Below are positions 4,341 to 63,895 of a stretch of DNA of 64,000 nucleotides, in pieces. Each line of letters opens with the position of its first letter. Position 1 is the stretch's first letter. The DNA is from Pontibacillus sp. HMF3514 (GTDB lineage: Bacteria; Bacillota; Bacilli; Bacillales; BH030062). The notes beneath the pieces are model-generated. The model ran no database searches. It saw only the letters and a list, made by a program, of their open reading frames with translations, and had not been told where the DNA came from. Position numbers and translations under genes: made by a program. The stretch is taken from the NCBI RefSeq assembly GCF_009858175.1, contig NZ_CP047393.1, positions 2,914,001-2,978,000 on the forward strand. Reading direction: 5' to 3'.

Positions 4341-5007
4341 TTATTCAATTATATGGCAGTTATCTGGAATAACTGTTTTAGTGAGAGAGGCGGTTCCGTT
4401 GCTATTGTGGAGTGCGGTGGGCTTGGGAACGGGTTGCTTTCCCCGGACGAACGATCGAGCCTCCTCATACGCTACGCTTCTTGCGGGGTCTCGCTCGCCC
4501 GTTTTTCCGGAGGAGTCAACCCGTTCCCAAGCCCACCTTAGCCGAATGGTGATGAACGGAACCGCAACGATATGAGGAGGTAATGCTTACGGACATTTGA
4601 TCCGCTATTTCACCTTAAAATGGTTTTTCTAAAGAGCTTACGGACATTCATTCCGCTAATTGCTACAAATCACCTTATTAAAGAGCAATCTGTCACAAAT
4701 AAGGTACCATATGTCCGTAACGACTCTCGAAATGCCTTAAAAGTTCAAAATAACGGAACAGATGTCCGTAAGGTTTAGAACTCACACACTAGGGTCCGTT
4801 AACTTACATACCAGCAAAGGGGGGAAGGAAACGGCAAACTCCAGTGGTAGAAAGGGCAGATGAGACCCCACAGAGAACGGAGTGAACGAGGAGGCTCAGC
4901 TGGTCTTCCACAGGAGTATTGCCGTTTCACTGACCCCCTACCTCTCATAAAAGCAACGGACTGCTCTCAACTTATCTCGATTCCAAGTCTTCCAGATAAG
5001 GGGGCTT
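4341..5007 (+). repeat. Composite palindromic element, copy 1 (L-A-B-R, subfamily I)
   Basis: Left end TTATTCA...ATGGCAG, right end AGATAAGGGGGCT. Unit A (4391-4565) is bounded by CGGTTCCGTT / AACGGAACCG and has a long stem GTGGGCTTGGGAACGGG / CCCGTTCCCAAGCCCAC. Unit B (4793-4962) is bounded by GGTCCGTT / AACGGACT with stem GAAACGGCAA / TTGCCGTTTC. Both units contain an inner arm related to GAGACCCC...GAGGAGGCTC. The centre (4566-4792) carries four ACGGACAT-type inverted motifs. No convincing gene. It fills most of the 4190-5075 gap, between the psp promoter and the ald terminator. Confidence 0.9.
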
Positions 5008-5035
5008 ATATGGAAGAAGCAAATTAAATTAAATT

Positions 5036-5066
5036 AAAAAGACAGACTATAAAATTATAGCCTGTC
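5036..5066 (-). terminator. Terminator of ald
   Basis: Stem GACAGACTATAA / TTATAGCCTGTC (one mismatch) with a T-run on the minus strand (A-run at 5036-5040), ten bases after the ald stop. Confidence 0.85.
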
Positions 5067-5075
5067 CAAAATTAA

Positions 5076-6197
5076 TTAATCATTATTTAATAAAGAATGT
5101 GCATCACAATACTCAAGTCCATGAGCTTCTGCTACTGCTTCATATGTTACATAGCCATTTAATGTGTTTATCCCTTTTAATAATGCTTCATCATCCTGAC
5201 ACGCTTTCTTATACCCTTTTTTAGCAAGTTTAAGCGCATAAGGGACTGTCACGTTTGTAAGACCAATCGTAGATGTTCTTGGAACAGCACCAGGCATATT
5301 TGCTACAGCGTAGTGTAGAACTCCGTGTTTCTCATAAGTTGGATTGTCATGAGTTGTGATACGATCCGTTGTTTCGAAAATTCCACCCTGGTCTATCGCA
5401 ACGTCTACAATAACTGAGCCGTCCATCATTTCTTGAACCATTTCATCAGTAACTAGTTTTGGTGCTTTAGCTCCAGGAATTAGAACCGCCCCTATAACTA
5501 AGTCAGAATCTTTAAGTTCCTGTGCGATATTTAAAGGATTTGACATAATTGTATTAATTTTAGAACCAAAGATGTCATCTAATTCACGCATGCGCTCTGG
5601 GTTTAAGTCTACAATGGTTACGTCCGCTCCTAGACCCATAGCAATTTTGGCAGCGTTCGTTCCAACAACGCCTCCACCAATAACAGTGACCTTTCCGCGG
5701 CGTACACCTGGAATACCACCTAACAGGATTCCCATTCCGCCACGAGACTTCTCGAGGAACTGAGCTCCGATTTGAGATGCCATACGTCCTGCCACTTCAC
5801 TCATTGGTGTAAGCAACGGAAGTGTTCCTCTTGCTGTTTGGACTGTTTCGTATGCAATCCCTACTACTTTATTATCGATTAGTGCCTTTGTTAATGCTGG
5901 CTCTGCAGCTAAATGTAAGTAAGTAAATAGAATAAGACCTTCATGGAAATATTCATATTCTTCCGGTAATGGCTCTTTTACTTTCATAACCATTTCTTGA
6001 TTCCAAGCTTCATTAGCTGTATCAACAAGTATTGCTCCAGCTTCTGTATATTCTTCGTTCGTAAAACCTGATCCTTCTCCAGCATCTCTTTCTACGAATA
6101 CTTCATGCCCTGCATTCAATAGTGTCATTACGCCAGCAGGTGTCATAGCTACACGGTTTTCATTGTTTTTAATCTCTTTAGGTACCCCTATTCTCAT
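5076..6197 (-). CDS. ald: Alanine dehydrogenase
   Basis: 373 residues beginning [20 protein letters not shown], which aligns directly with the known Ald N-terminus; a longer in-frame start at 6218 lacks a proper ribosome site, whereas GGAGG lies nine bases before this ATG. The enzyme interconverts L-alanine and pyruvate with NAD+/NADH and ammonia, feeding alanine carbon into central metabolism and sporulation. Visible motifs: [10 protein letters not shown] with the active-site His, the Rossmann segment [20 protein letters not shown], and VAIDQGG with the catalytic Asp. Length is close to the usual ~375. It is monocistronic, with its own terminator; no adeR-type activator gene is visible nearby. 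Confidence 0.97.
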
Positions 6198-6390
6198 AAT
6201 AACCAACCTCCACATCAATATCTCTAGACATTCAAGTTGCTATCCTTTCTAACTATATCACTCCATAGATCTATAAAGGAAGATCCAAAATAAAACTTTT
6301 CCCACTGTTCTTTTGTAAGCCCTTTCATTGTAACAAATCTCCCTTAAAAATTCATAGTGAAATTAGAAAACAAACAAGCCACCTGTTTCC

Positions 6391-7161
6391 TCAAGGTGTC
6401 TTATAACAATATTTATGAATGACATCCATGCCACCTGTTACTTCCATTACTGTACCTGTAACCATATCGGCATCATCTCCACATAAAAATAATATGGAAC
6501 GTGCGATGTCTCCCCCAGTACCTGAGCGCCCAATTGGAGTTTGCTCGTCTTTATGAGGTCGACTGTCCGCAATATCTGCTTCTTTCATGTCCCCAACAAT
6601 TTTACCCGGACAAATCATATTCGATGTGATTCCATATTCGGCTTCTTCATATGCAATCGTTTTTGTTAAGGAAACTAATCCTGTCTTAGCAGCTGCAAAG
6701 GCCGATCGATACATCCAACCTGGGGCACCATTAGCGCCTTGGAAACCATAATTAATAATTCTTCCAAACTTTTGTGCTCGCATTATAGGAACAACTAGCT
6801 TTAACAAATGAAATACGGCATCAAGGTTCCCATTTATCATACGATTCCACTCTTCTGTGGTATAATCCATGAGTTTTTTTCTTTCAAAAATATAAGGTCC
6901 AGCGTTATTAATTAAAACATCAATTCGACCAAACCGTTCCATAGCTTTATTGACTATATTCGGTAAGTCATCAACCAAGGTTACATCAGCTTGAACACAC
7001 TGAATGCGATCTGAATAAGAAGGGAGTTGCTGAAAGATTTCTTCTGCTTTTTGCTGATCCTGTCGGTACGTAACAGTTACAGAGTATCCTGCTTCAAGCA
7101 TTTCCTCCGTCACCTTACGTCCTAACCCTTTGGTTCCTGCTGTTATGATGGCATGTCTCAT
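6391..7161 (-). CDS. Short-chain dehydrogenase/reductase-like protein with degenerate active site
   Basis: 256 residues. Start chosen at MRHAIITAGTKGLG because AAAGGAGGT precedes it; a longer frame to 7251 would run into the divergent permease gene. The Rossmann motif is TAGTKGLG (variant of TGxxxGxG) and NNAG is intact at 85-88. The catalytic Tyr of YxxxK is Phe155 (FAAAK, Lys159 kept) and the catalytic Ser is replaced (NYGF at 137-140 where most members have NISS). It may bind NAD(P) without classical SDR catalysis, or use Tyr151/Tyr138. Resembles the YtkK-type proteins found near ald in Bacillus. Divergent from the NCS1 permease. Confidence 0.85.
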   Translation of the reverse strand: MRHAIITAGTKGLGRKVTEEMLEAGYSVTVTYRQDQQKAEEIFQQLPSYSDRIQCVQADVTLVDDLPNIVNKAMERFGRIDVLINNAGPYIFERKKLMDYTTEEWNRMINGNLDAVFHLLKLVVPIMRAQKFGRIINYGFQGANGAPGWMYRSAFAAAKTGLVSLTKTIAYEEAEYGITSNMICPGKIVGDMKEADIADSRPHKDEQTPIGRSGTGGDIARSILFLCGDDADMVTGTVMEVTGGMDVIHKYCYKTP

Positions 7162-7237
7162 GCAACGACCTCCTTTGTCATTTACAATACGCTTTGTCTT
7201 TATGTACAATATGTTTTGCTGAGAGGATGTGAAATAA

Positions 7238-8560
7238 ATGGGAGCTCCCAATTCCGCATTGAAGTCAACAGTTGTTGAAACGATTGGTTTAGAAGCGGTG
7301 CCACAGTCCCAACAAAATACTCCTTGGTTTCGATATATGTTTATTCAAATTGCGATATCCGCTAATGCTGGAAATTTTTTAATCCCTGCACTAGCTGTTT
7401 TAAAAGGAAATTTATCTTTTCTTGCAGCCGTCATCGCTACTAGCTTAGGAGCTATTTTCGGATTTGTTTTTGTATCATTATTGTCCTACCCAGGTTCTGT
7501 TTACGGCATTCCAGCCCAATATGCCATTCGAACAATGTTGGGTGTAAGAGGTGCCAGGTATCTTTCTTCCCCCATACGTAGTATTACATCACTTTACTGG
7601 TTTAGTGTGCAAACAATAGGCGGTACTTATGTTCTTCAACAATTACTCGTTCGCCTTACTGGGGAGGAATATCCATTTCTACTATTTTCAGTCCCGATAT
7701 CCATCTTAATGGTGGTATTAGCCATCATTGGATTTGAAGCTGTAAAGCGAGCGACAACTTACTTTCTCCCTCTCCTCTTGTTAGGAGAAGGCACTATGCT
7801 CTATCTATACTTTACTACAAATGAATCAAGTCGTTCACTCTTTACGCTCCCTGCTAACGAATCACACGGAAGTTTTGGGATGATGGTTTTCTTTGCAAGT
7901 CTCGCTTTTGTCCAATATGTATCAGGTGTTAGTGCGTCAGCTGATATGACACGTTATGCCAAAACACCTAAACAAGGTGCAGTTGGGTTATTTTTAGGGA
8001 ACACATTTGGATTCTTTATTACAGCCATACTTGGATGTGCCTCTGCTTATTTATACCATGACAGTAACCCTTATGTGTCTTCTAGTTCAATAACTGATTC
8101 ACCACTATTTCTTACAATCATCACACTTACAGCGATTATATCGATGCTATCCATAAACTTAAGTAATGCATACACAGGTGGCTATAGCCTTTTAAACACC
8201 TTTTCCAGCTTGTCCCGGATACAAAGTGCTATCATCTTTGGAGTCTCAGGCGTAATTTTAAGCTCAGTTCCTACTCTCGTAACGCATGCTGAGAAATTTG
8301 TGTCTGCTTTAGGTGGTTTAATTATTCCTATTTCTGCTGTAATCGTTGTGGACTTTATCTTTATCAAGAAGAGACGTTTATCAGAAGAATCCCTGTTAAC
8401 CTTACAAGAAAAGGGAACGTTATATCGCGTGCCATTGCTTACCGTTCTTGGAGGAAGTATTATTTACTTCGTTATCCCAGAATCTTATTCACCTGGTTTC
8501 ATTACATTCTTCGCAATTGGTATCCTCTATTACCTATTAGCAAAGAAGTCTAATGAATAG
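7238..8560 (+). CDS. NCS1-family nucleobase:cation symporter (cytosine permease-like)
   Basis: 440 residues with about twelve hydrophobic segments. The N-terminal region (NTPWFRYMFIQIAISANAGNFL...GAIFG) and PGSVYGIPAQYAIRTMLG are characteristic of the NCS1 family, which imports cytosine, purines, hydantoins or thiamin precursors. Substrate cannot be assigned. AGAGGA lies ten bases upstream of the ATG. It is divergent from the SDR-like gene with a 76-base shared promoter region and ends in a strong terminator. No pyrimidine or purine catabolic genes are adjacent, so context gives no help on substrate. Confidence 0.88.
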   Translation: MGAPNSALKSTVVETIGLEAVPQSQQNTPWFRYMFIQIAISANAGNFLIPALAVLKGNLSFLAAVIATSLGAIFGFVFVSLLSYPGSVYGIPAQYAIRTMLGVRGARYLSSPIRSITSLYWFSVQTIGGTYVLQQLLVRLTGEEYPFLLFSVPISILMVVLAIIGFEAVKRATTYFLPLLLLGEGTMLYLYFTTNESSRSLFTLPANESHGSFGMMVFFASLAFVQYVSGVSASADMTRYAKTPKQGAVGLFLGNTFGFFITAILGCASAYLYHDSNPYVSSSSITDSPLFLTIITLTAIISMLSINLSNAYTGGYSLLNTFSSLSRIQSAIIFGVSGVILSSVPTLVTHAEKFVSALGGLIIPISAVIVVDFIFIKKRRLSEESLLTLQEKGTLYRVPLLTVLGGSIIYFVIPESYSPGFITFFAIGILYYLLAKKSNE

Positions 8561-8561
8561 A

Positions 8562-8606
8562 AATACCATCTTCAGCTCGTGTAAGGCTGAAGATGGTATT
8601 TTTTTA
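8562..8606 (+). terminator. Terminator of the NCS1 permease gene
   Basis: Perfect 15-bp stem AATACCATCTTCAGC / GCTGAAGATGGTATT (8562-8576 with 8586-8600) followed by a T-run. The T-run overlaps the stop codon of the small opposite-strand gene. Confidence 0.93.
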
Positions 8607-8753
8607 TGCCTTACGCTTCGGATGTTCTCGAATATTACGTCCCTCAACATCATTATCGATGACACCACTCTGATAACTCTCAGAAAGCATCCGATTTGTT
8701 TCTTTATCGCCTTCCGGATCATATTGCAGACCTAATTTATTCTTTTTGTCCAC
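8604..8753 (-). CDS. Small conserved-looking protein, 49 residues
   Basis: Starts at GTG 8753 (a second GTG lies immediately upstream at 8756) with GGGAGGT seven bases before it. Sequence starts VDKKNKLGLQYDPEGDKETN and ends NIREHPKRKA; very hydrophilic, no membrane segment, no recognised domain. Codon use and the good ribosome site support a real gene. It converges on the permease, sharing the terminator region. Function unknown; small hydrophilic proteins of this kind in Bacillus are often sporulation or stress related, which is inference only. Confidence 0.6.
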   Translation of the reverse strand: MDKKNKLGLQYDPEGDKETNRMLSESYQSGVIDNDVEGRNIREHPKRKA

Positions 8754-8867
8754 CACAAACACCTCCCGCTATTTAGTGTGCCTCAGAAAGTTCAAATTCT
8801 CTCTTGAACCTTTTGCCAATTCCTTATCCTTACGTGTTATAATTAGGAAAAGAAAGGAGAGATCCGA

Positions 8868-9317: not shown

Positions 9318-9328
9318 TTCCATGTAAA

Positions 9329-9362
9329 AAAGCTGTTACCTTAATATAAGGTAACAGCTTTT
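9329..9362. terminator. Bidirectional terminator between uspA-like gene and moaB
   Basis: Stem AAGCTGTTACCTTA / TAAGGTAACAGCTT (9330-9343 with 9347-9360), A-run on the left and T-run on the right, so it can serve both converging genes. Confidence 0.9.
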
Positions 9363-9873: not shown

Positions 9874-9874
9874 A

Positions 9875-17775: not shown

Positions 17776-17933
17776 ATTCATTCTCCTTTATATCAGTAAC
17801 GGTTTTTCACTTTAGCGAATTGAATACTCACATCATAACAAAATGGTTATGAATCGACTAGTTTTTGTATTTATTATATGTTTTTACTACAAAAGTGTTT
17901 TCAGAGAATCTTGTTTCACTCACTCTTCCATAA

Positions 17934-18657
17934 AAGCCCCCTTATGTGGAAGACTTGATTTCGAGATATTGTGCGGTGAAGGTCCGTTGCTTTTATGAGG
18001 GGGAGGGGTTCAGTGAAACGGCAATACTCCTGCTGCCCCACACGACGTGGGGTAGGTCGACGTTGCCACACGATGTGGCGGTCTTAGTCGATCTTCATTA
18101 TTTACTTTCAGCCTCCTCATACGCTACGCTCCTTGCGGGGTCTCATCTGCCCTTTCTACCGCGGGAGTTTGCCGTTTCCCTCACCCCTTTGCGTTTATGG
18201 AGATTAACGGACCCTAGTTACTTGAGATCTAAACGTTACGGACATCGGTTCCGTTATTTTGAACTTTTAAGGCATTTCGAGAGTCGTTACGGACATATGG
18301 TACCTTATTTATGACAAATTGGGCTTATTCAAGGTGATTTGATGCAAATAACGGAATAAATGTCCGTAAGAAAGTCATTTTAAGGTCAAATAACGGAACA
18401 ATTGTCCGCAAGCATTTCCTCACATTATCGCTGCGGTTCCGTTAATCTCCATTCGGCTAAGGTGGGCTTGGGAACGGGTTGACTCCTCCGGAAAAACGGG
18501 CGAGCGAGACCCCGCAAGAAGCGTAGCGTATGAGGAGGCTCGATCGTTCGTCCGGGGAAAGCAACCCGTTCCCAAGCCCACCGCTCTCCACAATAGCAAC
18601 GGAACCGCCTCTCTCACTAAAACAGTTATTCCAGATAACTGCCATATAATTGAACAA
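17934..18657 (-). repeat. Composite palindromic element, copy 2 (L-A-B-R, subfamily I, inverted relative to copy 1)
   Basis: Reads R-B-centre-A-L on the plus strand. Unit B 17981-18213, unit A 18433-18609. The centre (18214-18432) carries the ACGGACAT motifs and is close to the centre of copy 1. Unit B is enlarged by a ~78-bp insert (18034-18111) starting CCCCACACGACGTGGGG that resembles the interior of the small repeat at 2778-2845. Fills the gap between ytcJ and the SASP terminator; no gene in it. Confidence 0.9.
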
Positions 18658-21592: not shown

Positions 21593-22176
21593 TTATTCCG
21601 TTAAATGGCAGTAATCTGGAATAAGCTTCTGAGTGAGATGGTGTGTTCGTTGCGTTTGTGAGGCGTGGGGGTCATTGAAACGGCAATACTCCTGCGGAAG
21701 ACCGTCCAAGCCTCCTCATCCGCTACGCTCCTTGCGGGGTCTTGGCCGCCCTTTCTACCGCGGGAGTTTGCCGTTTCCTTCCCCCATTGGTATGTAGGTT
21801 AACGACCCCAGCTCTAATTAGTTGATCTTCCATAGCGCATCAGAAGTATTATATGGAGATCAGAAATGCTATAAACAAGCTTTATCTCAGGATCCAAATC
21901 CTCTTCAATCTAATTAAGGTGCAACTAACAAATCAAAACAGAAATACTTATTAGGCTGCGGTTCCGTTAACCTCAATACGGCTAAGGTGGGCTGGGAAAC
22001 GGGCTGACTCCTCCGGAAAAACGGGCGAGCGAGACCCCGCAGGGAACGTAGTGACTGAGGAGGCTCGATCGTTCGTCCGGGGAAAGCAGCCCATTTCCCA
22101 GCCCGCCGCACTCCATTAAAGCAACGGAACCATACTCACCTTATATCGAAATCAAGTCTTCCAGATAAGGGGGCTT
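21593..22176 (+). repeat. Composite palindromic element, copy 3 (L-B-A-R, subfamily II)
   Basis: Left end TTATTCC...ATGGCAG, then unit B (GAAACGGCAA / TTGCCGTTTC stem), a centre beginning near GTTGATCTTCCATAG, unit A (CTGGGAAACGGGCTG / CAGCCCATTTCCCAG stem) and right end AGATAAGGGGGCT. Nearly identical over its whole length to copy 7 at 63313-63895. Together with the nifZ upstream region it fills 21356-22207; no gene seen. Confidence 0.9.
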
Positions 22177-22207
22177 TAATGGAAGAAGAAAGAGTCCCCA
22201 AAACAAA

Positions 22208-32130: not shown

Positions 32131-32195
32131 TAAATATTCTCATACTAAAACACATGACTCACCAAGGCATTTTGAGTAATGCTCTTATTCTGTTA

Positions 32196-32735
32196 AAGCC
32201 CCTTATGTGGAAGACTTGGAATCGAGATAATGTGCGTATGGTTCCGTTGCTTTTGTGCAGATCGGCGGGCTGTGGAACGGGTTGCTTTCCCCGGAAGACC
32301 GATCGATCTTCCTCGTCACTTCGTTCCTGCGGGATCTCGCTCGCCCTTTCTACCGGAGGAGTCAACCCGTTCCACAGCCCGCCTTAGCAGAATGGAGATT
32401 AACGGAACCGCCTTAGTTCAGGGATGAGTTGTTCTGATTCCAGGTAGTATTACCCTATCATGACAAGGCTCTGAACAACTTCTCTGAATATGATTTCCAA
32501 CCAACATGAGGTGGGAAAGCCAAATTATGGTCCGTTAGTTTCCATAATCGCGTGGAGGGAAGGAAACGGCAAACTGTCGTGGTAGCAAAGGCAAGACGAG
32601 ACCCCGCAGGAACGAGGAGGCTCGGCTTGTCTTCCACAACAGGCTTGCCGTTTCACTGACCGCAATAAATTACTCAACAGCAACGGACTCCTCTCAGTTT
32701 CAAGTCTTCAACAATCCTGCCATTTAACTGAATAA
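32196..32735 (-). repeat. Composite palindromic element, copy 4 (L-B-A-R, subfamily III, inverted)
   Basis: Plus strand reads R-A-centre-B-L. Unit A stem GGCGGGCTGTGGAACGGG / CCCGTTCCACAGCCCGCC; unit B stem GGAAACGGCAAACTG / CAGGCTTGCCGTTTC. The centre (TTAGTTCAGGGATGAG...) is shared only with copy 5, to which the whole element is about 97% identical by eye in inverted orientation. Fills the gap between the converging helicase and tyrS genes. Confidence 0.9.
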
Positions 32736-34230: not shown

Positions 34231-34470
34231 AAAAAACCCCGTCCTATATAAAAGGGACGAGGTTTGATCGCGGTACCACCCTTGTTGTAACAAGCTTACT
34301 TGTTACCACTCGGAAAAATAACGGTTTTTAACCGTCTTCTGATTTCGCAGAAGATACTCCAGGACGTAATTCACAATTTGTTCTGTACTGACTTTCACCA
34401 ACCGCCAGCTCTCTAAAATCAGATAACAAATCATTACTGCAACCCTTCAACGTTCAATATTTAAATACTG
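34231..34470 (-). ncRNA. T-box leader of tyrS, specifier UAC (Tyr)
   Basis: On the minus strand the T-box core TGGTACCGCG (complement of 34270-34279) precedes a terminator stem AACCTCGTCCC / GGACGGGGTT (34264-34254 with 34244-34235) and T-run. Stem I contains the AGAGAG and GGTTGGTGAAAG-like conserved loops, and the stem pairing ATCTG..CAGAACAAAT leads into GAATTACGTC, giving UAC as specifier. Uncharged tRNA-Tyr should stabilise the antiterminator and permit tyrS transcription. Confidence 0.92.
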
Positions 34471-46697: not shown

Positions 46698-47237
46698 TTA
46701 TTCAACAATTTGGCAGGATTGTTGAAGACTTGAAACTGAGAGGAGTCCGTTGCTGTAGGGTAATTTGTTGCGGTCAGTGAAACGGCAAGCCTGTTGTGGA
46801 AGACAAGCCGAGCCTCCTCGTTCCTGCGGGGTCTCGTCTTGCCTTTGCTACCACGACAGTTTGCCGTTTCCTTCCCTCCACGCGATTATGGAAACTAACG
46901 GACCATAATTTGGATATCCCACGTCATGTTGGTTGGAAAACATATTCAGAGAAGTAGTTCAGAGCCTTGTCATGATAGGGTAATACTACCTGGAATCAGA
47001 ACAACTCATCCCTGAACTAAGGCGGTTCCGTTAATCTCCATTCTGCTAAGGCGGGCTGTGGAACGGGTTGACTCCTCCGGTAGAAAGGGCGAGCGAGATC
47101 CCGCAGGAACGAAGTGACGAGGAAGCTCGATCGGTCTTCCGGGGAAAGCAACCCGTTCCACAGCCCGCCGATCTGCACAAAAGCAACGGAACCATACGCA
47201 CATTATCTCGATTCCAAGTCTTCCAGATAAGGGGGCT
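46698..47237 (+). repeat. Composite palindromic element, copy 5 (L-B-A-R, subfamily III)
   Basis: Reads L-B-centre-A-R. Inverted near-duplicate of copy 4: differences are concentrated at the left end and in the centre; unit A and B stems are the same apart from a few bases. It lies between two terminators (46658-46690 and 47257-47301) separating converging genes. No gene in it. Confidence 0.9.
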
Positions 47238-47256
47238 ATCCTTGAATACACTCATG

Positions 47257-52771: not shown

Positions 52772-55594
52772 TTATTCTTTTTCTCGTGCTAAATATTCTT
52801 TAAAGCTGGCATGAGTCATATGCACTTCTCGAGGCTTACTTCCTTTTGAACCAGAAATAATCCCTTTTTCCTCCATTGTATCAATAAGTCGAGCGGCACG
52901 ATTATAACCAACTTTAAAGCGTCTTTGTAATAATGAAGCACTAGCACCATTTTGATTGATTACGAAGTCCACTGCATCTTCAAACAGCTCGTCTTCTTCC
53001 TCTTCAAAACTTGTTTGCTTCATTAACTCTTCTTGTTCAAACATATAATTTGGTGGCGCAATTTTCTTAACGTAGTTAGCAATACGTTCAATCTCATCAT
53101 CCGAAACAAAAGCACCTTGAATTCGTTGCCCTTTTCCAGATCCATTCTCTAAGAATAACATATCGCCTTTACCAAGTAATTTTTCAGCACCATTCGTATC
53201 GATAATCGTTCTTGAATCTACTTGTGATGATACGCTAAAGGCTACACGAGTTGGGATGTTTGCTTTAATTAAACCAGTAATAACATCAACAGATGGACGT
53301 TGTGTAGCTAGAAGCAAGTGCATACCACAAGCACGAGCTTTTTGAGCAATACGACAGATCGCATCTTCTACGTCCTGAGGTGAAACCATCATAAGGTCTG
53401 CTAGCTCATCAATCACAATGACCATATATGGCATCTTTTCTGCTTTACGACCTTTTTCTTTCATCTTTTCATTATAACGATCTATATCGCGAACGCCTTC
53501 TGCCACAAACTTTTCATAGCGTTCTTCCATTTCTTTCACTGCCCACTTAAGAGCTGATGTAGCTGCTTTTACATCTGTGATAACAGGTGCCACTAAATGA
53601 GGTAAATCATTGTAAGGTGCTAGTTCAACCATTTTTGGATCAATTAATAGAAACTTCACATCTTCATAGTTCGCTTTATACAACAAGCTAATTAAAATTG
53701 TATTGATACACACACTCTTACCTGAACCTGTTGCACCAGCTATTAACCCATGCGGCATTTTCTTGAGATCTGTTATAACAGGAGAACCAGCAATATCTAA
53801 GCCAAGCCCAACAGATAGTGGTGAATCGTTATCTTTAAAAGAAGGATTTTCTAAGATTTCTTGTAGACTTACTGCCTGTGCTTGTTGATTTGGAACCTCT
53901 ATGCCAATTGCATTCTTACCTGGGATAGGAGCTTCTATACGAATATCTTTAGCAGCAAGACTCAATTTAATATCATCTGCTAAGTTCGTGATTTTGCTTA
54001 CTTTCACTCCGGGTTCAGGCTGTACTTCAAAACGCGTAACAGCAGGTCCCTTCATAGCATTAACCACTTTTGCTTTAACATGAAAGTGTTGCAACGTGGT
54101 TTCTAATAATTGCATCTGATCCTCAATCCAAGCATCGTCATTCTCATCTCGGGATATCGGATCATTTAACATGTGCATCGGTGGTGTAGAATCTTTCACT
54201 ACCTCGTCAAAGGATACTTCCTCTGCCTCTTGTCCTTTGACCTCTTCTTCCTTAACAGGAGCTGGTTCTTCAGTCTTTTGCTTCCGTTCCTTAGCTTCCT
54301 CACTCGCTTTAAGATCACGGTTTCTTTTATCCCTTGGCGTCATAATTACATTAAATGGGCGTCTATTTTTTTTAGGAGAACGCTCTGGTTCTGGTGCAAT
54401 TTCTGACGGTGATTCTGGTTGTGTTTCTGATTCTCTGTCTGTCTCTAGTTCAGATTCAGGTGTTGATTCTGATTCTGTCTCTACCTCAAATTCGGATTCA
54501 GGTTCTGATTGCGGCTCTGTCTCTACCTCAAATTCGGATTCAGGTTCTGGTTGCGGATCTGTTTCTGACTCAACTTCTGATTCAGGTTCTGATTGCGGCT
54601 CTGTTTCTGACTCAACTTCTGATTCAGGTTCTGATTGCAGCTCTGTTTCTGACTCAACTTCTGATTCAGGTTCTGGTTGTGGCTCGTTTCCATTAACTAA
54701 TTCCGCATCTTCTTGCTGAGCTACTTCTTGAGCTTCTCCTTGGAAAGACTGCTCTTCGTTTATAGACTCTTCAGTCGTTTGTTCTTCAACAGGCTCTTCT
54801 TCTCCAAAATCCATAAAGAAGCTTTTCTTTTCTTCTTGATCGGACTCTGCACCTTCTTGATCTTCTTCAACCTCATAATGAGGATTTTCATGTTGTTCAT
54901 CTTCGTCGGCCTCTTCAGTCGACTCTTCTTCTTGTACACGTAAAAAAGGAACAATTTTATCGGATTGATTTATTAAATCGTGCTTGTTTACCTCGCCAGA
55001 AGACCCCGCCATTCGTTGTTCCTCAAGAATATCTCCTCCCGCTTTTTCAGAATGAGTCGATTGAAAACTTGCTTCTGGTGATTCTTCATTTTGCTTTCGT
55101 AAAAAGGCTGGGAGATCTTCTAAACTTATTGCATCTTCATCTTGCTCGGATCTACTTCCAAACCCATAGATAGGAGATGGAACGTCACTAGGAACAAAAG
55201 GATATGGCATGTCTTCTTCTGTTTCTTTTTGACTAGTATTTTCTGTATAGGATTCCTTGTAAGACGTATTGTATGATTGTGTTCCTGAATCTCTGTATTC
55301 TTTACGGTTATATGTATCTGTTTGGGAATTTTGATAAGGTTGTTTGTTGTTGTAACCTTCTTCCTGATGTTGCTTAGGTTCACTTGACCTACTTCGTTTC
55401 ATCCCTTTTTTATCATCAGGAATAACTGGAAAACGAAACTCTCCTTGCTTTGGGTATTGGTAAACCATTTTCGTTTGAAATTCGTTGTTTAGTTTCTTTC
55501 CTCCAACAGATTGTGAAGAATCGGGCAGTTCATCTTCAGTCGATGTATCTTCTTGGAGTACGTGATGTAACCATTTTTTCATTCGATTCCACAT
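52772..55594 (-). CDS. sftA: DNA translocase SftA (soluble FtsK/SpoIIIE family)
   Basis: 940 residues. No membrane helices, unlike SpoIIIE. The first ~430 residues are a disordered, highly acidic linker that includes 14-residue Glu/Ser repeats (about 305-390). Then the FtsK motor: LIAGATGSGKSVCINTILIS (Walker A), PYMVIVIDELADLMMV (Walker B), LLLATQRPSVDVITGLIKAN. The C-terminal winged-helix gamma domain is FVINQNGASASLLQRRFKVGYNRAARLID, which reads SRS/KOPS-like sequences. SftA moves DNA away from the closing septum. Matches B. subtilis ytpS/T in position and length (952). Confidence 0.96.
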   Translation of the reverse strand: MWNRMKKWLHHVLQEDTSTEDELPDSSQSVGGKKLNNEFQTKMVYQYPKQGEFRFPVIPDDKKGMKRSRSSEPKQHQEEGYNNKQPYQNSQTDTYNRKEYRDSGTQSYNTSYKESYTENTSQKETEEDMPYPFVPSDVPSPIYGFGSRSEQDEDAISLEDLPAFLRKQNEESPEASFQSTHSEKAGGDILEEQRMAGSSGEVNKHDLINQSDKIVPFLRVQEEESTEEADEDEQHENPHYEVEEDQEGAESDQEEKKSFFMDFGEEEPVEEQTTEESINEEQSFQGEAQEVAQQEDAELVNGNEPQPEPESEVESETELQSEPESEVESETEPQSEPESEVESETDPQPEPESEFEVETEPQSEPESEFEVETESESTPESELETDRESETQPESPSEIAPEPERSPKKNRRPFNVIMTPRDKRNRDLKASEEAKERKQKTEEPAPVKEEEVKGQEAEEVSFDEVVKDSTPPMHMLNDPISRDENDDAWIEDQMQLLETTLQHFHVKAKVVNAMKGPAVTRFEVQPEPGVKVSKITNLADDIKLSLAAKDIRIEAPIPGKNAIGIEVPNQQAQAVSLQEILENPSFKDNDSPLSVGLGLDIAGSPVITDLKKMPHGLIAGATGSGKSVCINTILISLLYKANYEDVKFLLIDPKMVELAPYNDLPHLVAPVITDVKAATSALKWAVKEMEERYEKFVAEGVRDIDRYNEKMKEKGRKAEKMPYMVIVIDELADLMMVSPQDVEDAICRIAQKARACGMHLLLATQRPSVDVITGLIKANIPTRVAFSVSSQVDSRTIIDTNGAEKLLGKGDMLFLENGSGKGQRIQGAFVSDDEIERIANYVKKIAPPNYMFEQEELMKQTSFEEEEDELFEDAVDFVINQNGASASLLQRRFKVGYNRAARLIDTMEEKGIISGSKGSKPREVHMTHASFKEYLAREKE
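54428..54685 (-). repeat. In-frame 42-bp tandem repeats in sftA
   Basis: Encodes five successive 14-residue units of the form (E/D)PQ(S/P)EPESE(V/F)E(S/V)ET plus a partial sixth (ESESTPESELET). The DNA repeat unit is 42 bp with a few differences per unit, so copy number is likely to vary between strains. Confidence 0.85.
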
Positions 55595-55769
55595 CAATGC
55601 TCACTCTCTCTATTAAAATATTGAATACACCTATTTTAACAGTTTTTTTAGGATTTTGGGAAAGTAGAGGTGTGCTATAAAGGAAAATCCCTCTTTAGGT
55701 GGATATAGATTTAGGGTTTTATAGACCAATCATAGAATGAACTATGCAATCATTGTTTTTCTTATGGAA

Positions 55770-56377
55770 TTATTCAGCTAAATGGCAGTAATATCGAATA
55801 AGCTGGTGCGGAGTGGTTCCGTTGCTTTTATGGAGTGCGGCGGGCTGGGAAACGGGCTGCTTTCCCCGGACGAACGATCGAGCCTCCTCATCCGCTACGC
55901 TTCTTGCGGGGTCTCGCTCGCCCGTTTTTCCGGAGGAGTCAGCCCGTTTCCCAGCCCACCTTAGCCGAATGATGATTAACGGAACCACAGCGATATTAAG
56001 AAGACGATGCTTAAGGACATTTGTTCCGCTAATGTCTTTTTAATGATCTTTTTGAAGAGCTTACGGACATTCATCCCGTTATTTGCTCCAAATCATCTTT
56101 AAAAAGCCCATTTTGTCACAAATAAGGTACCATATGTCCGCAAGGGTTAGAACTCATACAACTAGGGTCCGTTAACCTCCACATCCTTAAGGGGTGAAGG
56201 AAACGGCAAACTCCCGCGGTAGAAAGGGCGACCGAGACCCCGCAGGAACGAAGTGACGAGGAGGCTCGGACGGTCTTCCGCAGGAGTATTGCCGTTTCAC
56301 TGAACCCCTAACTCTCATAAAAGCAACGGACTGCTCTCAACTTATCTCGATTCCAAGTCTTCCAGATAAGAGGGCTT
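55770..56377 (+). repeat. Composite palindromic element, copy 6 (L-A-B-R, subfamily I)
   Basis: Left end TTATTCAGCTAAATGGCAG. Unit A stem GCGGGCTGGGAAACGGGCTG / CAGCCCGTTTCCCAGCCCAC, centre with ACGGACAT motifs (for example near 56013 and 56062), unit B with GCGGTAGAAAGGGC and CCGCAGGAG arms. Centre is shared with copies 1 and 2, although unit A is closer to that of copies 3 and 7. Lies between the sftA start and the ytpR terminator. Confidence 0.9.
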
Positions 56378-56437
56378 TAATGGAACATGTAATCAAGAAG
56401 ATATCTCTAATCCCCCCCTATATATAGCTAAAAAATA

Positions 56438-58029: not shown

Positions 58030-58039
58030 TTATTAACAA

Positions 58040-58357: not shown

Positions 58358-58372
58358 GGATAAATATCCTCC

Positions 58373-59410
58373 TTAATACTCGATCTTTAAATCTCCTGGC
58401 TGAATCCAACCTTTTTTCCTAAACCATTCCGATAATAGCAAAGTTATAACAAGAGGACCAACGATGTGCAATCCCATAATCGCCCAAAAGATTTCCCAGG
58501 AAAAGCCCATCTGTTGAAAGGTCATGATTTGACCTACAAATCCACTTGTTCCCATACCTCCACCAGGTGCGTTATTTACCATTTTTAGCCAGACTGAAGC
58601 AAATGGTGCTAGAACTGCCCCAGCAATTGTGGGTGGTAAGATCAAAAGCGGTTTTCGGATAACATTGGCTACTTGAAGCATAGAGGTACCGATTCCTTGA
58701 GCAATCCAGCCTCCTATTCCATTATCGCGATAGCTCATCGTTGCAAAACCAATCATTTGTGCAGCACAACCGACTGTCGCTGCCCCCGCTGCAATCCCAC
58801 TTAAATCCAACATTAAAGCAATTGCTAAACTCGAGATCGGTGCGGTTAAAGCCCATCCCATAAGGACTGCAACCAAGATCCCCATAATAAATGGTCGCTG
58901 ATTTGTAGCCCATTCAATTATATCTCCAAATGCAAGCATAAAGGCATTTACAGAAGGACTAATTAAAACGCCTACTAAATATCCGACCAAAATTGTAATA
59001 AATGGTGTAAGAATGATATCAATTCTAGTTTGTTTACTTACCAGCTTCCCTATTTCAATGGAAAGAAGTGCAGCTATGTAACTTCCTGCTGGACCACCAC
59101 CAATTTCAGCACTAAAAGCTCCGCTAAAGAGAGCAGCAAACACAACGAGAGGTGGTGCTTTTAATCCATAGGCAATCGCTACGCCAATGGCACCTCCCCA
59201 TACCTTTTTTTCCATTGCAAACGAGCCCATCTCGATAAGAGGTTGAAATCCAATTTCTTGGCCAATGGTTTTAACAATTAAACCTATAATAAGTGATGAA
59301 AATAGCCCTAAAGCCATATAACTTAAGGCTGTTATAAAGTATTCTTTTGCAGATAAAGTGACTCCTTGTTTATCTAAAAACTTCTTTATAGATGAAGTAT
59401 CTTGAGTCAT
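58373..59410 (-). CDS. EIIC-like membrane protein (PTS_EIIC_2 family)
   Basis: 345 residues with about nine hydrophobic segments. GAGGG is seven bases before the chosen ATG (MTQDTSS); the ATG six bases upstream touches it. Motifs include VWGGAIGVAIAYGLKAPPLVVFAALFSG, GGGPAGSYIAAL and NAPGGGMGTSGFVGQ. It resembles stand-alone PTS IIC proteins that lack IIA and IIB partners, so sugar phosphorylation is unproven. No PTS genes nearby; it is coupled to ytpP instead. Confidence 0.8.
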   Translation of the reverse strand: MTQDTSSIKKFLDKQGVTLSAKEYFITALSYMALGLFSSLIIGLIVKTIGQEIGFQPLIEMGSFAMEKKVWGGAIGVAIAYGLKAPPLVVFAALFSGAFSAEIGGGPAGSYIAALLSIEIGKLVSKQTRIDIILTPFITILVGYLVGVLISPSVNAFMLAFGDIIEWATNQRPFIMGILVAVLMGWALTAPISSLAIALMLDLSGIAAGAATVGCAAQMIGFATMSYRDNGIGGWIAQGIGTSMLQVANVIRKPLLILPPTIAGAVLAPFASVWLKMVNNAPGGGMGTSGFVGQIMTFQQMGFSWEIFWAIMGLHIVGPLVITLLLSEWFRKKGWIQPGDLKIEY

Positions 59411-59702
59411 AAGCATTCCCTCTTTCTTTTATTAGGTGCCTGATTTTATCATAACCAATTCAAAATGCTTCCTCAATCGTTAGTTGTTATCCACTCAAAC
59501 TCTTTTATCTATTTTAACTCATTCTATTAAGGTTTAAATATTGATGTCGAAATAAAAATTAGACCTATCCTTTTTCCACTTAGATTCAGTCGACAAAAAT
59601 CCCGAAACGCAATTGTAATCCTACATATTTAGTTCTATAATTAATAGATAAATTAACAATTTTTTAATTATTTAGTCATATCTCATAAGAGATAGAGGAC
59701 GC

Positions 59703-61934
59703 ATGCAAGAAATTTTTAACACTTCATTCTTTCAAAGGGGGACTTTCATCTTGAGATCGATACGTAATCGAGTACGCTTAATGCTAGTTTTATCCTTATC
59801 TAGTTTAATTGTCCTAATTGGTTTTTCATTCTATTTTTTAACTGAACAAAAGAAAATGGCTGAAGCACAGGAAAATGTGCAACAAGCACTCCACCAAAGT
59901 GATGACATTAAATACACTGTCTCGTTAACAAGAAATGCAGAAAAGACATTCTTTAATGATCCATCCATAGAAAATGGAGAAGCGATGAGAGAGGCAATCC
60001 AAAACTTACAGGAAAAGGCTTCGAAATACGCTAAAGAGAATCAGAATTATCCTGAAATCTCCAAGTCTTTCAATTCTATCAAAGAAAGTGCCGTAGCTTA
60101 TGAAGAACAACTGGATCCACTAATTGGCATGTATGATATTGTGGGCTTTTCTGAAAATGAAGGCATGTACAAACGAATCAACGATACAGTTGACTCGTTT
60201 TACGCGATTGTTGAAAAAGCAAGCAACCCTGACCTAAGTAACGCTTTTATTCAATTAAAGCTAGTACAAGAAGACTACTTGAAATCTGGTAGTGAAGAAG
60301 ACATGAATAAGTTCAACTCGATATCCAATGAAATGCGTGATCTAGTTAGTGATGCTGATCTACCTTCTGAAGATACGAGTAACTTTAACATGAACCTACT
60401 TAAGTTTAAGCAAAACCTGAATACCATAACAAATACCAAACTTCAGGCTAGCAACCTTACTAGTACGTTTAGTGAAATTGCTAGTAACATTACAAATCAA
60501 GCAACTTCCGTAACCGTTAGCGCCAATGCGAAAAGTAGTGCAATGCAAGAAGAAGCAGAAGCGACCAATCAAAAAACGGTTACGATGCTACTCATTATTA
60601 GTGGTATTGCTATCGTATTACTGCTTGGTACCGGAATATTCTTAATCCGTTCCATTAGTCGCTCTATTAAGAGTCTTAAAGAAGGTGCAGAAATTATCGG
60701 TAACGGAAATCTATCCTACCGTGTGGAATTAAAAACAAAAGATGAAATGGCTGAGTTAGCTACAACCTTTAACAATATGGCCGATCGAATGCAAAGTTCA
60801 CTTTTAAAGGTTAATCATGCATCAAACGTTCTTTCTTCTTCATCCTCTAACCTTGCTGCGGTTTCTCAGCAAACAACAGCACAGTCACAAGAGGTAAGTG
60901 AAGCCATTAATCAAGTAGCAGTTGGTTCTCAAGAACAAGCAAGTCAGATTGAAGAAAGTACGAAGTTGATTGAAGACGTTTCTGGAGCAATTAAACGTAC
61001 AGATGATTACGCTAATGAAATTTCTGAGTCACTTTCTTCTGCAAAAAATGATGGTGAAGCTGGAATTGAAACCGTGAACGAGCTTCAAGAAACATCAGAT
61101 TCCTTTATTGGTTTAGCATCTCATCTAACAAATGAGGTACAACAAGCAACCGAACAATCAAGAAAAATTAATCAAATTGTTTCGACCATCCAAGAAATTG
61201 CTGACAACACTAATCTCTTAGCACTAAACGCAGCAATCGAATCTGCCCGTGCAGGTGAATCAGGCCGAGGTTTTGCCGTAGTTGCTGATGAAGTAAGAAA
61301 GTTAGCTGAACGATCAAAACAAGAAGCACAGGAAATTTATCAGCTTGTTAATGGAATGTCTGAGCAAATGTCTTCTTTATCTGAGGAAGCTGATAAATTC
61401 CATACCTATCAAGAAACACAATCAGAGTCTGTTAATAAAACAAAAGAAGCGTTTGACCGCATCGCAGGCCATGTAACAAGCATGAACAGCCAAATCACTA
61501 ATGTAAAACAAGCTGTAAGCGAAGTAGGTGGATTTAACAACGACCTTAAAACTAAGCTTCATGAAATCAGCGTGATCTCAGAGGAGTCAGTCGCAACAGC
61601 AGAAGAAGTAGCAGCTTCTTCTGAAAACCAGCTACAAGCTATTTCTCAAGTGAATTCATCAGCAATGGACCTTCAAAACCTATCCCAAGAACTTGATGAA
61701 GAAGTAAGTCAATTTGAATTGGGTGACGAGGAACAATCCGAAGAGCCTACAATCACTTTAGCTGATGATGAGCCATATACAGAAGAGCTTTCAGATGAAG
61801 AAACGGATTACGAAGAAAAGCTAGATGAAGAACATGATTATAATGATGAATACGATAAAAATGATTATTATGATGAAGTTGCTAGCTCTTCTGAGGAAGA
61901 TGAGATCTTAGATAATGATTTAGACGAAGATTAA
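59703..61934 (+). CDS. Methyl-accepting chemotaxis protein with acidic tail
   Basis: 743 residues from ATG 59703 (GAGG close upstream); TTG at 59751, with GGGGG nine bases before it, is an alternative that would begin [11 protein letters not shown]. Membrane helix 1 at ~27-46, helical extracytoplasmic sensor to ~288, helix 2 at ~290-314, HAMP domain, then the signalling hairpin tip [21 protein letters not shown]. The ~65 C-terminal residues are almost entirely acidic ([20 protein letters not shown]) and contain no NWETF-type receptor-tether. Signals to CheA/CheW. Ligand unknown. Single gene. Confidence 0.95.
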
Positions 61935-61951
61935 CAACATAGAGACTAAAC

Positions 61952-61986
61952 AAAAGCGCCCTCCCTTACTGGGAGAGCGCTTTTTT
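61952..61986. terminator. Bidirectional terminator after the chemoreceptor gene
   Basis: AAAAGCGCCCTCCC pairs with GGGAGAGCGCTTTT (one mismatch), A-run left and T-run right. Confidence 0.9.
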
Positions 61987-61990
61987 AAAA

Positions 61991-62542
61991 CTATTCTGAT
62001 TCTGTATCTGTCGTGGAATAAGCTATGGAACGTACAATTTTCATCATTTCGTGCGCATCATCTTTTAAATCATTCTTGTCCGTTTCAGTAGTCATCTTAA
62101 CGCCACCAACACCAACCTGAAGCTCATATGATTCATCATTTAACTGAATAATACGAAGGTATCCAAATCGCTCATCATTACTAAAGGTTTCGATCATCTT
62201 GATGTCTTTAGCTTGTTTAGCAGACTTATAAAAGGTATCACTTTCAAGCTTTTCAAAAGGGTTATAAAATAGAATATACCCTTGTTCATCTTCTCTAAGT
62301 ATAAGATTATTTGCTGAATTAGACACGATCTCCATCGTTTCAGGCATATACAAAGATATGCTTTCTAATTCTCTCGTAAACGGAACTTCTTCCTTGTTAA
62401 AAGCCTCTTTTGCTGCAGATTTTGCATTTTGCATGGCTTGTTTCTCTGATACAAAGAACCCTGACAAGAACAAAATCAGCAGGACAGCAATGGCTACACT
62501 TACTAAGCCGACTAAAAGCCATTTTGGATTAAACTGTTTCAA
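61991..62542 (-). CDS. Membrane-anchored hypothetical protein
   Basis: 183 residues: N-terminal membrane helix (WLLVGLVSVAIAVLLILFLSGFF) followed by an extracytoplasmic region with SISLYMPETMEIVSNSANNLIL and YILFYNPFEKLESDTFYK. No recognised domain. Single gene, divergent from ytoQ. Sequence quality and codon use look like an ordinary conserved Bacillaceae gene, but no function can be proposed. Confidence 0.72.
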   Translation of the reverse strand: MKQFNPKWLLVGLVSVAIAVLLILFLSGFFVSEKQAMQNAKSAAKEAFNKEEVPFTRELESISLYMPETMEIVSNSANNLILREDEQGYILFYNPFEKLESDTFYKSAKQAKDIKMIETFSNDERFGYLRIIQLNDESYELQVGVGGVKMTTETDKNDLKDDAHEMMKIVRSIAYSTTDTESE

Positions 62543-62768
62543 TGCGACTCTCCCCCTGCTTCCATCTTAAACAAGTGTCTCTTTTTAATCTTCTATATCT
62601 ATCATACTATGAGATTGTCATTTGACAAGGATCGATTTTATATGTTTTTAAAAATTCATATTCTCATTGCAGGTTAAACGTATTCACTGCCCTAGATATC
62701 CGTTTATGCTAAACTTAATAAGGGAAAGAATTAACAGATTTTGTTTCCGTTAGAGGAGGAATATCATT

Positions 62769-63209
62769 ATGGAGCTAACTGTCTATCTTGCAGGACAAAT
62801 TCATGATTCTTGGAGAGATGATGTAAAAGCAAAAGCAAGACAAAAAGATTTACCCTTACACTTTGTAGGACCTCAAGAACAGCATGATCGATCTGATTCA
62901 GTTGGAGAAGATATTTTAGGGGAACAACCTAACCATGTCTATCGTGATGACGCTGCTTCAAGCATTAATAATTTACGTACACAAGTGTTAATGCAAAAAT
63001 CTGATGTTGTTATCGCTTTGTTTGGAGACAAATACAAACAATGGAACACAGCAATGGATGCAAGTACTGCATTAACAATGGGCAAGCCAGTTATATTGGT
63101 TCGTCCAGAATCTTTACACCACCCATTAAAAGAGTTATCGAATAAAGTAAATGTGACAGTAGAGACGATTGATCAGGCTTTAGATGTCATTTCTTATATT
63201 TTTGAGTAG
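62769..63209 (+). CDS. ytoQ: YtoQ family protein
   Basis: 146 residues. Highly characteristic YtoQ sequence: VYLAGQIHDSWRDDVKAKA, FVGPQEQHDRSDSVGEDILG, QKSDVVIALFGDKYKQWNTA and VRPESLHHPLKELSNK. The fold appears related to nucleoside 2-deoxyribosyltransferases (YLAG start), but function is unproven. AGAGGAGG precedes the ATG. Followed by a terminator and composite element 7. Confidence 0.95.
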   Translation: MELTVYLAGQIHDSWRDDVKAKARQKDLPLHFVGPQEQHDRSDSVGEDILGEQPNHVYRDDAASSINNLRTQVLMQKSDVVIALFGDKYKQWNTAMDASTALTMGKPVILVRPESLHHPLKELSNKVNVTVETIDQALDVISYIFE

Positions 63210-63239
63210 TCCTTTTTACAAATTACATTAAATGATTTT

Positions 63240-63274
63240 GAAGACGGAATCAAAAATGATTTCGTCTTCTTTTT
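63240..63274 (+). terminator. Terminator of ytoQ
   Basis: GAAGACGGAATCA pairs with TGATTTCGTCTTC (one mismatch), followed by TTTTT. Confidence 0.88.
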
Positions 63275-63312
63275 ATTTCAAGAACAAATGATGGCGAAGT
63301 CCTATATTAAAG

Positions 63313-63895
63313 TTATTCAGCTTTATGGCAGTAATCTGGAATAAGCTTCTGAGTGAGATGGTGGGTTCGTTGCGTTTGTGAGGCGTGAGGGTCATTGAAA
63401 CGGCAATACTCCTGCGGAAGACCGTCCAAGCCTCCTCATCCGCTACGCTCCTTGCGGGGTCTTGGCCGCCCTTTCTACCGCGGGAGTTTGCCGTTTCCTT
63501 CCCCCCATTGGTATGTAGGTTAACGACCCCAGCTCTAATTAGTTGATCTTCCATAGAGCATCAGAAGTATTATATGGAGATCAGAAATACTATAAACAAG
63601 CTTTATCTCAGGATTCAAATCCTCTTCAATCTAATTAAGGTGCAACTAACAAATCAAAACAGAAATACTTATTAGGCTGCGGTTCCGTTAACCTCAATAC
63701 GGCTAAGGTGGGCTGGGAAACGGGCTGACTCCTCCGGAAAAACGGGCGAGCGAGACCCCGCAGGGAACGTAGTGACTGAGGAGGCTCGATCGTTCGTCCG
63801 GGGAAAGCAGCCCGTTTCCCAGCCCGCCGCACTCCATTAAAGCAACGGAACCATACTCACCTTATCTCGAAATCAAGTCTTCAAGATAAGGGGGC
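63313..63895 (+). repeat. Composite palindromic element, copy 7 (L-B-A-R, subfamily II)
   Basis: Left end TTATTCAGCTTTATGGCAG, unit B, centre identical in type to copy 3, unit A (stem CTGGGAAACGGGCTG / CAGCCCGTTTCCCAG) and right end AGATAAGGGGGC. Direct near-duplicate of copy 3 with only a handful of differences by eye. Sits between two terminators. No gene in it. Confidence 0.9.

Follow-up and report, generated by a model that had tools for sequence, protein, structure and literature searches.

Composite palindromic elements of Pontibacillus hold stable addresses, while their interiors are probably exchanged in situ

Introduction

The usual view of dispersed palindromic repeats is that they spread by transposition and afterwards decay where they have landed. 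For the REPs, gene conversion was reportedly proposed by Higgins in 1988. The elements described here, from the salt-loving Bacillus relative Pontibacillus, are closest in kind to NIME, BOX and BIME. They resemble BIMEs, REPs and REPINs as an interspersed mosaic of palindromes; however, REPs measure 20-60 bp and REPINs are RAYT-dependent, whereas the single Y1 gene of Pontibacillus sp. HMF3514 is bordered by another palindrome.

NIMEs of Neisseria join dRS3 palindromes (ATTCCC N8 GGGAAT) with many kinds of intergenic RS units, and a role in recombination has been proposed for them (PMC3898611). The likeness, as far as that description of their anatomy goes, lies in short palindromic repeats combined with varied intergenic units. 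NIMEs, however, form arrays of the 20-bp dRS3 and 30-160 bp RS units, while the Pontibacillus elements are single, ∼250-850 bp long, with ends of ∼50 bp, long GC-rich hairpins and stable addresses; dRS3 is acted on by a phage integrase, and none is known for the Pontibacillus elements. BOX of Streptococcus pneumoniae is described as composite, modular, structured, intergenic, in excess between convergent genes and slow-moving (PMC3049150), and the traits listed there are common to the Pontibacillus elements. BOX differs in having terminal inverted repeats with target duplications and in varying mainly in the number of boxB modules, whereas no duplication is seen in Pontibacillus and whole interiors change. 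The small variable segments of E. coli, by their published outline, are likewise short loci whose content varies among strains between common borders, with palindromic units at 129 of 1,037 loci (PMC2884548), but they are not a single repeat family trading content among its own addresses. The intergenic stem-loop repeat families bcr1 and Bhal-1 of Bacillus (PMC2267715) have models of 167 and 74 bp, and are set apart from the present elements by description only.

Results and discussion

The window, i.e. the whole analysed stretch of 64,000 nucleotides from Pontibacillus sp. HMF3514, holds seven elements that are real and well above chance expectation (Table 1). They lie where originally predicted, with common ends and two hairpin units, except that the true edge on the R side is 12-14 bp further out. 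Their termini form an imperfect inverted repeat, TTATTCNNTTAAA-TGGCAG ... GGGGGC-TTTAANNGAATAA, both ends carrying TTATTCNNTTAAA outside and a TTATCTGGAA-like sequence inside; the common sequence of the copies after GGGGGC is TTTAATGGAATAA, which pairs with TTATTCNNTTAAA. An end comprises an outer arm of ∼13 bp and a core of 6 bp, with ∼30 more conserved bases on the R side. The two units, alpha and beta, proved to be homologous hairpins in opposite orientation, a relation added to the original prediction. RNA folding of two copies gave z values of −9.0 and −10.5 (20 dinucleotide shuffles each). Four ORFs (92-122 aa) overlapping the elements have no Pfam match at E 0.1; a protein-coding reading was hence rejected, in agreement with the earlier view that the elements encode nothing plausible.

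Table 1. Elements, hairpin units and RNA module of the window
Feature	Position	Strand	Remarks
Element 1, arm to arm	4341..5019	+	L end left; order alpha-beta
Alpha unit, element 1	4392..4562	-	
Beta unit, element 1	4793..4961	+	
Element 2, arm to arm	17922..18657	-	L end right; alpha-beta, Bacillaceae-1 within beta
Beta unit, element 2	17981..18212	-	Pieces 17981-18037 and 18110-18212 either side of Bacillaceae-1 module
Bacillaceae-1 RNA (RF01690) in beta unit, element 2	18037..18103	-	68.3 bits
Alpha unit, element 2	18436..18606	+	
Element 3, arm to arm	21593..22188	+	Order beta-alpha
Beta unit, element 3	21645..21804	-	L001:1553-1712
Alpha unit, element 3	21961..22131	+	L001:1869-2039
Element 4, arm to arm	32183..32735	-	L end right; beta-alpha from L
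Alpha unit, element 4	32240..32408	-	
Beta unit, element 4	32529..32689	+	
Element 5, arm to arm	46698..47250	+	Order beta-alpha
Beta unit, element 5	46744..46904	-	
Alpha unit, element 5	47025..47193	+	
Element 6, arm to arm	55770..56389	+	Order alpha-beta; missing in sister G003
Alpha unit, element 6	55815..55985	-	
Beta unit, element 6	56166..56331	+	
Element 7, arm to arm	63313..63909	+	Order beta-alpha
Beta unit, element 7	63363..63525	-	L002:1551-1713
Alpha unit, element 7	63682..63852	+	L002:1870-2040

The end pattern TTATTCNNTTAANNNNCNNNTATNTGGAA, with no more than 3 mismatches, has 163 occurrences in the HMF3514 genome as compared to 2 for the reversed control, and a model of the R-end finds at least 150 matches in each of four of the eight genomes of the genus, HMF3514 among them. 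These counts are consistent with the estimate of hundreds per genome, and the family is spread genome-wide rather than confined to this locus. G006 and G007 are high-copy genomes, while the same model finds no R-end in G002 and one in G005. A phage or plasmid origin was rejected: element 6 has no phage or plasmid match at E 1e-5, and the R-end consensus gives only short, weak plasmid matches (the best being 81% over 47 nt in a plasmid of Pseudalkalibacillus hwajinpoensis). A search with the alpha unit returned matches of 26-27 nt only.

At gathering score, the Rfam content of the window is a T-box and two Bacillaceae-1 RNAs, and no other Rfam family covers the elements. The module in element 2 is a full-model match, and seven further HMF3514 copies carry Bacillaceae-1 at 64.5-68.3 bits, so that an identical module lies inside beta in 8 of 33 copies. 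The module has 67 nt, and known Rfam sequence is limited to this part of some copies; the elements as a whole are not fragments of that family. Bacillaceae-1 has been catalogued among candidate RNAs from Bacillaceae, in an entry where a repeat element is not mentioned (PMC2864571).

Of 40 element ends, 20 have a terminator-like hairpin within 110 bp, as compared to 83 of 1000 random intergenic stretches, in line with the terminator association offered in the original prediction. Occupancy of intergenic spaces is 7/14 for convergent, 13/103 for tandem and 1/27 for divergent genes. In the stems, pair-keeping double changes (alpha, 26 cells at 6 of 51 pairs; beta, 42 cells at 9 of 30 pairs) exceed all 500 shuffles in cell count. 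This setting, the kept pairing and the Rfam module would suit a cellular role, either as a structured RNA or as an element marking transcription boundaries, selected at the 3' ends of genes. However, R-ends are absent or nearly so from two genomes of the genus, interiors are interchangeable and one interior class is a tandem array, while further pair types show no excess in alpha or beta (429 and 497 of 500 shuffles reach them). One-sided stem changes are few (9 cells in alpha, 3 in beta), and this is closer to palindrome correction at the DNA level. A cellular role of this kind is thus considered very unlikely; of the structured RNA family suggested earlier, the pairing kept through double changes stands, while the known RNA is restricted to the module of some copies.

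The sister species G003 has flanks ∼92% identical to those of HMF3514. Of the 16 element sites in a collinear block of 212 kb, 13 are common to both species, two being present only in HMF3514 and one only in G003. Identity was measured at 11 shared sites free of N: a first set of 12 lost two with N-containing G003 interiors (324 and 407 N) and gained L004. Outside these 11 are the first and last common sites of the block (stretch or contig end), HMF3514 site 41014 (L end undetected), element 7 (G003 contig end) and elements 2 and 4 (one flank non-collinear, and element 2 also with an N gap); element 1 falls outside the G003 comparison. Site 113809 of HMF3514 has its arms detected out of register, and the identity test permits a shift of two. 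A profile of divergence by position was drawn from 11 pairs, the two with N included and site 113809 and L004 left out. The 13-bp outer arms are site-specific, with identities of 0.860 (L) and 0.811 (R) as compared to 0.718 and 0.671 for shuffled sites, values reached in 0 of 20,000 shuffles each; at element 7 the L arm is identical in G003. Identity of the deep interior, on the other hand, is 0.563 against 0.566 for shuffled sites (10,592 of 20,000 reach it). Site-specific arms around interiors at the shuffled level suggest that the addresses are stable and the interiors exchanged in situ.

Unit order, unit number or class differs at 7 of the 11 sites. Telling against exchange, unit order is unchanged at four, and element 5 has an identity of 0.80. 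No G003 interior among 10 has its best match in the copy at its own address, and certain ones match HMF3514 interiors at other addresses at 92.5-93.3%. Nine near-identical copies of subfamily 1 have differing arms, and at three of their addresses (L001, L004 and L008) G003 has a different kind of interior beneath similar arms. Mosaics also occur within interiors, as in L018, where the left half resembles element 5 and alpha belongs to the other subfamily. In the species pair G001/G004, both draft genomes, one site has common ends and different hairpins; the pair G006/G007 shares a single R-end, at which the blocks on either side lie far closer together in G007.

The main caveat is that G003 is a draft, with contigs ending in elements and N in 3 of the 16 paired elements examined, so that wrong gap filling is possible. 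That the interior differences are artefacts of this assembly is nevertheless the least probable of the readings considered, since the 11 sites contain no N and have collinear flanks on both sides, some G003 interiors match the closed HMF3514 genome at neutral divergence, and the G001/G004 site agrees, though from drafts too. Moreover, 11 of the 16 G003 copies can be matched to another across 60% or more of their length and none exceeds 97% identity, i.e. they are at least 3% apart where comparable.

Inverted-repeat ends, many copies and intergenic location would also be expected of MITE-like transposition, in which excision is followed by re-insertion of other copies at preferred sites beside terminators, and the three unshared sites of the block and the absence of element 6 from G003 point the same way. 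But 34 copies have no evident target-site duplication, the four empty sites carry no extra flank from which one could be read and none is a clean empty site, and repeated re-insertion at the same base pair, keeping site-specific arms, would be needed. We regard this reading as quite unlikely. The non-autonomous mobile family proposed earlier holds as a dispersed family with inverted-repeat ends, but the copies do not behave like whole units hopping to new places, given the 13 common sites and the changed interiors.

Several candidates for target or mobiliser were rejected. A TA duplication within TTATTC/GAATAA disagrees with the R side, which varies among copies (GAAGA, GAACA, GAATA). The single Y1 (RAYT) gene of the HMF3514 genome (177 aa) has GTGCCTGACCCCC palindromes on both sides and no element ends in its 3.3-kb locus; the different repeat at its borders speaks against a RAYT-driven REPIN. 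Mobilisation by IS110-type genes with bridge RNA was dismissed because PF01548 presence does not track copy number (HMF3514, 8; G003, 1, partial with a stop; G006 and G007, 0; G002, 2 with no R-end). A pre-existing palindromic target was also discarded: 10 of 11 such places in HMF3514 are L ends of elements, and arms are missing from sites empty in one species. One of the 11 places may be solo.

Divergence steps sharply at both cores, TGGCAG and GGGGGC, and the outermost TTATTC (0.10) is more conserved than the seven bases that separate it from the core (0.28), a pattern that does not resemble a conversion gradient. The L and R arm consensus sequences also differ, the third base of the hexamer being C in 1 of 63 L ends as against 18 of 63 R ends. 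Such features could fit a dedicated site-specific recombinase that docks on the outer arms and exchanges cassettes at the cores. However, the family is linked to no recombinase gene, IS110-type genes are not a common factor, arms are missing too at the four sites that one of the species lacks, hardly any empty palindromes exist and mosaics occur inside interiors, which leaves such an enzyme unlikely. The broader picture of an integron-like system without genes, whose arms dock structured non-coding cassettes swapped by dedicated recombination at these cores, is equally doubtful; if true, one cassette of a gene-free integron-like system would be a catalogued candidate RNA.

As judged from the two aligned genomes, the ends are fixed at addresses, mostly just downstream of genes, and the interiors differ between species and agree across addresses. 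It therefore appears reasonably likely that the elements are non-coding composites in which palindromic ends at fixed addresses enclose hairpin modules, and interiors are swapped in a conversion-like manner among copies. Exchange in situ probably takes place at the palindromic ends, through recombination or template switching. Since swaps extend to the TGGCAG core, no more than ∼19 bp of homology remains on the left; such a length is short for ordinary RecA exchange and tells against this reading. We infer that pairing or template switching at the common ends would start a swap between dispersed copies, involving whole interiors as well as single modules; copies may be lost through deletion, and either palindrome correction or selection for the fold could keep the stems paired. 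Initially, the family probably spread by transposition with a putative enzyme; no autonomous partner with the same ends was noticed in the loci read.

Conclusions

Address and content appear decoupled in this family, the addresses looking as old as the species split and the contents fully reshuffled. The elements would allow exchange at short palindromic homologies to be assayed in nature, and the old gene-conversion proposal for bacterial intergenic palindromes becomes directly testable. Because a candidate RNA curated by Rfam is located inside a repeat family that shuffles, the interpretation of that RNA is also affected.

Organisation and distribution of the element

Thirty-four copies of the composite palindromic element were aligned in register, and removal of one duplicate left 33. 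The element typically starts with TTATTCNNTTAAA followed by TGGCAG (L end) and finishes with GGGGGC followed by TTTAANNGAATAA (R end), the inner sequence on the R side, GAAGACTTGGNTTCGAGATAA, being nearly invariant. Two homologous hairpin units, alpha and beta, lie in opposite orientation in 30 of the 33 copies (alpha, 123.6–150.2 bits; beta, intact or split, up to 120.0 bits) and are found in both orders; copies L014, L017 and L022 carry an alpha-type unit alone. The Bacillaceae-1 RNA of Rfam (RF01690) interrupts beta, always at one place, in 8 of the 33 copies; the Rfam scan covered the loci of 20 copies, and none of the other 13 shows an interrupted beta. The module is also present within two copies of G003, the draft genome of a sister species (flanks ∼92% identical), and a further interior class consists of a tandem array of ∼21-bp repeats between the usual ends (own locus L159; G003 at the L004 site).

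The HMF3514 genome (G000; one contig of 3,976,892 bases, the window being C1:2914001-2978000) displays 163 occurrences of the end pattern as compared to 2 for the reversed control, and G003 displays 88 as compared to 5. A sequence model of the R end, built from 45 sequences of these two genomes and applied at an E cut-off of 0.01, gave at least 150 matches each in G000, G003 and the congeners G006 and G007, 47 in G004, 38 in G001, one in G005 and none in G002. Under stricter filters, matches were recorded in 47 of 299 genomes sampled across the order, belonging to 18 of 116 genera. At several other Pontibacillus loci the R end is joined to other hairpin interiors. Isolated palindromes sharing the arm-core-arm design are present in other Bacillales; these could be relatives of the element ends, their remnants or their ancestors.

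Neighbouring and related features are collected in the table. The Y1 gene listed there, together with its palindromes, is a REP/RAYT system separate from the element family.

Features located in the window and in the compared genomes
Location	Feature	Details
L099:1330-1863 (G000:C1:3433847 region)	RAYT-like Y1 gene	single copy, 177 aa; palindromes GTGCCTGACCCCC...GGGGGTCAGGCAC on each side, a third further on
window 2780-2846	second Bacillaceae-1 RNA	outside all elements, between longer inverted-repeat-like arms
L027 2801-2867	another Bacillaceae-1 RNA	outside element
window 54369-54704	42-bp tandem repeats	within large ORF 52772-55597
window 34250-34459	T-box leader	142.8 bits
L085:789-1696 and 7228-8133 (G315:C29)	repeated 908-bp block	93% identity; first bases exactly palindrome TTATTCAACTAAACTGCCATTATGTTGAATAA
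G000:C1:2288477-2447656	160-kb region	the genome's complete set of eight IS110-type matches
L273 (G175:C1:1619000-1627000)	terminator-like hairpin	flanked outward by R-type and L-type inner end sequences, inside-out (by eye)
L163:1650-1730 (G003:C16)	∼65-bp palindrome	both sides made of R-end inner sequence (ATATCTCGAAACCGAGTCTTC ... GAAGACTTGGATTCGAGATAT); no further cargo

Genomic context

Simple ORF-based gene calls over 324 kb of G000 (spaces of at least 60 bp) placed 21 of 22 elements: 7 in the 14 convergent spaces, 13 in the 103 tandem spaces and one in the 27 divergent spaces. For 12 of the 13 elements in tandem spaces, the start lies 30–126 bp past the upstream stop codon; for the remaining one the distance is 350 bp. 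Of 40 element ends, 20 have a terminator-like hairpin within 110 bp, as compared to 83 of 1000 random element-free intergenic stretches.

Conserved addresses and probable exchange of interiors

The mean pairwise divergence of nine subfamily-1 copies falls from ∼0.71 in the left flank to 0.10 at TTATTC and 0.28 over the next seven bases, is 0.00 from TGGCAG, 0.01–0.14 across the interior and 0.04 at GGGGGC, and rises through the right arm (0.41 and 0.31) to 0.60–0.78 beyond it; these copies vary from site to site in their arms and hardly at all in their interiors. The L and R arms are not alike: at the third hexamer position in the own and G003 stretches, 63 L ends have A 54 times and C once, and 63 R ends have A 32 times and C 18 times.

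Comparison with G003 suggests that the addresses are fixed between the species and the interiors exchanged in situ. G003 is collinear with most of the window beyond position 18589 (long blocks of 90–94% identity) and with own 1618001-1830000 (mostly 89–95%), the latter block having 16 element sites, of which 13 are common to both species, two are confined to G000 (own 17970, 206235) and one to G003 (204122). Eleven shared sites with both ends present and no N, ten from collinear blocks and one (L004) from elsewhere, were compared. Identity at orthologous sites is 0.860 for L arms and 0.811 for R arms, as compared to 0.718 and 0.671 after shuffling (0 of 20,000 in each case), whereas deep interiors score 0.563 as compared to 0.566 (10,592 of 20,000). 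Unit order, unit number or class differs between the species at 7 of the 11 sites; order is kept at own 31974, own 67024, element 3 and element 5, and two of these four differ by the Bacillaceae-1 module.

Close relatives of the interiors are found at other addresses: G003 113152 and G003 54840 share 93% identity with own 17970, and G003 15698, at the address of element 5, shares 92.5% with own L027, each alignment spanning 75% or more of both copies. As this divergence equals that of the flanks, such interiors are about as old as the species split. When 13 G003 copies were compared with 43 own copies, which are part of the G000 complement and in which two address-matched copies were too short to qualify, none of the 10 G003 copies with a known own address had its best match there. 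The draft state of G003 is the greatest weakness of the case for interior exchange. In a 3.1-kb stretch surrounding one element, G001 and G004, both drafts, share 86% identity; the two ends of this element agree and the hairpin interiors differ; comparison of a second site is confined to one end.

Element 6, own 17970, own 206235 and G003 204122 each correspond to an empty site in the other species, where the arms are absent along with ∼20–60 bp of flank. No target duplication is readable at any of these four sites. They are most simply explained by loss of old copies through deletion; insertion with filler may also account for them. G005 and G007 (∼73% identity) show no such element in the spaces matching elements 2 to 4, nor does G005 in that matching element 5.

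Hairpin structure and proposed mechanism of exchange

Standard pairs make up 99.2% of cells in the 51 pairs of alpha (27 units, 25 distinct) and 99.1% in the 30 pairs of beta (20 units, 19 distinct). Double changes affect 6 pairs of alpha (26 cells) and 9 of beta (42 cells), with 9 and 3 one-sided cells, respectively. For both units, covariation scores are higher than in any of the 500 shuffles or any slid control, a result to be read with the caveat that kinship among sequences can beat shuffles without structure and that the counts rest on few independent events; the number of further pair types is not above shuffles. Since most stem changes are double and few pass via G-U, a DNA-level process is suggested as their origin.

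Among the matches listed, the accessible text on Bacillus/Halobacillus palindromic repeats, bcr1, Bacillaceae-1 RNA and Pontibacillus repeats, and on REPIN/RAYT, BIME gene conversion and NIME, gives no account of the element. The background draws on passages of PMC2267715, PMC2884548, PMC3116915, PMC3049150, PMC4641356, PMC2864571 and PMC3898611.

In the L hairpin, the inner half varies along with the interior, and homology on the left is therefore limited to ∼19 bp at most; that on the R side extends over ∼50 bp. Cassette exchange by a putative recombinase is the main rival explanation of the exchanged interiors. Our best guess is conversion or template switching, which would begin at the R end, with resolution taking place in the left palindrome.
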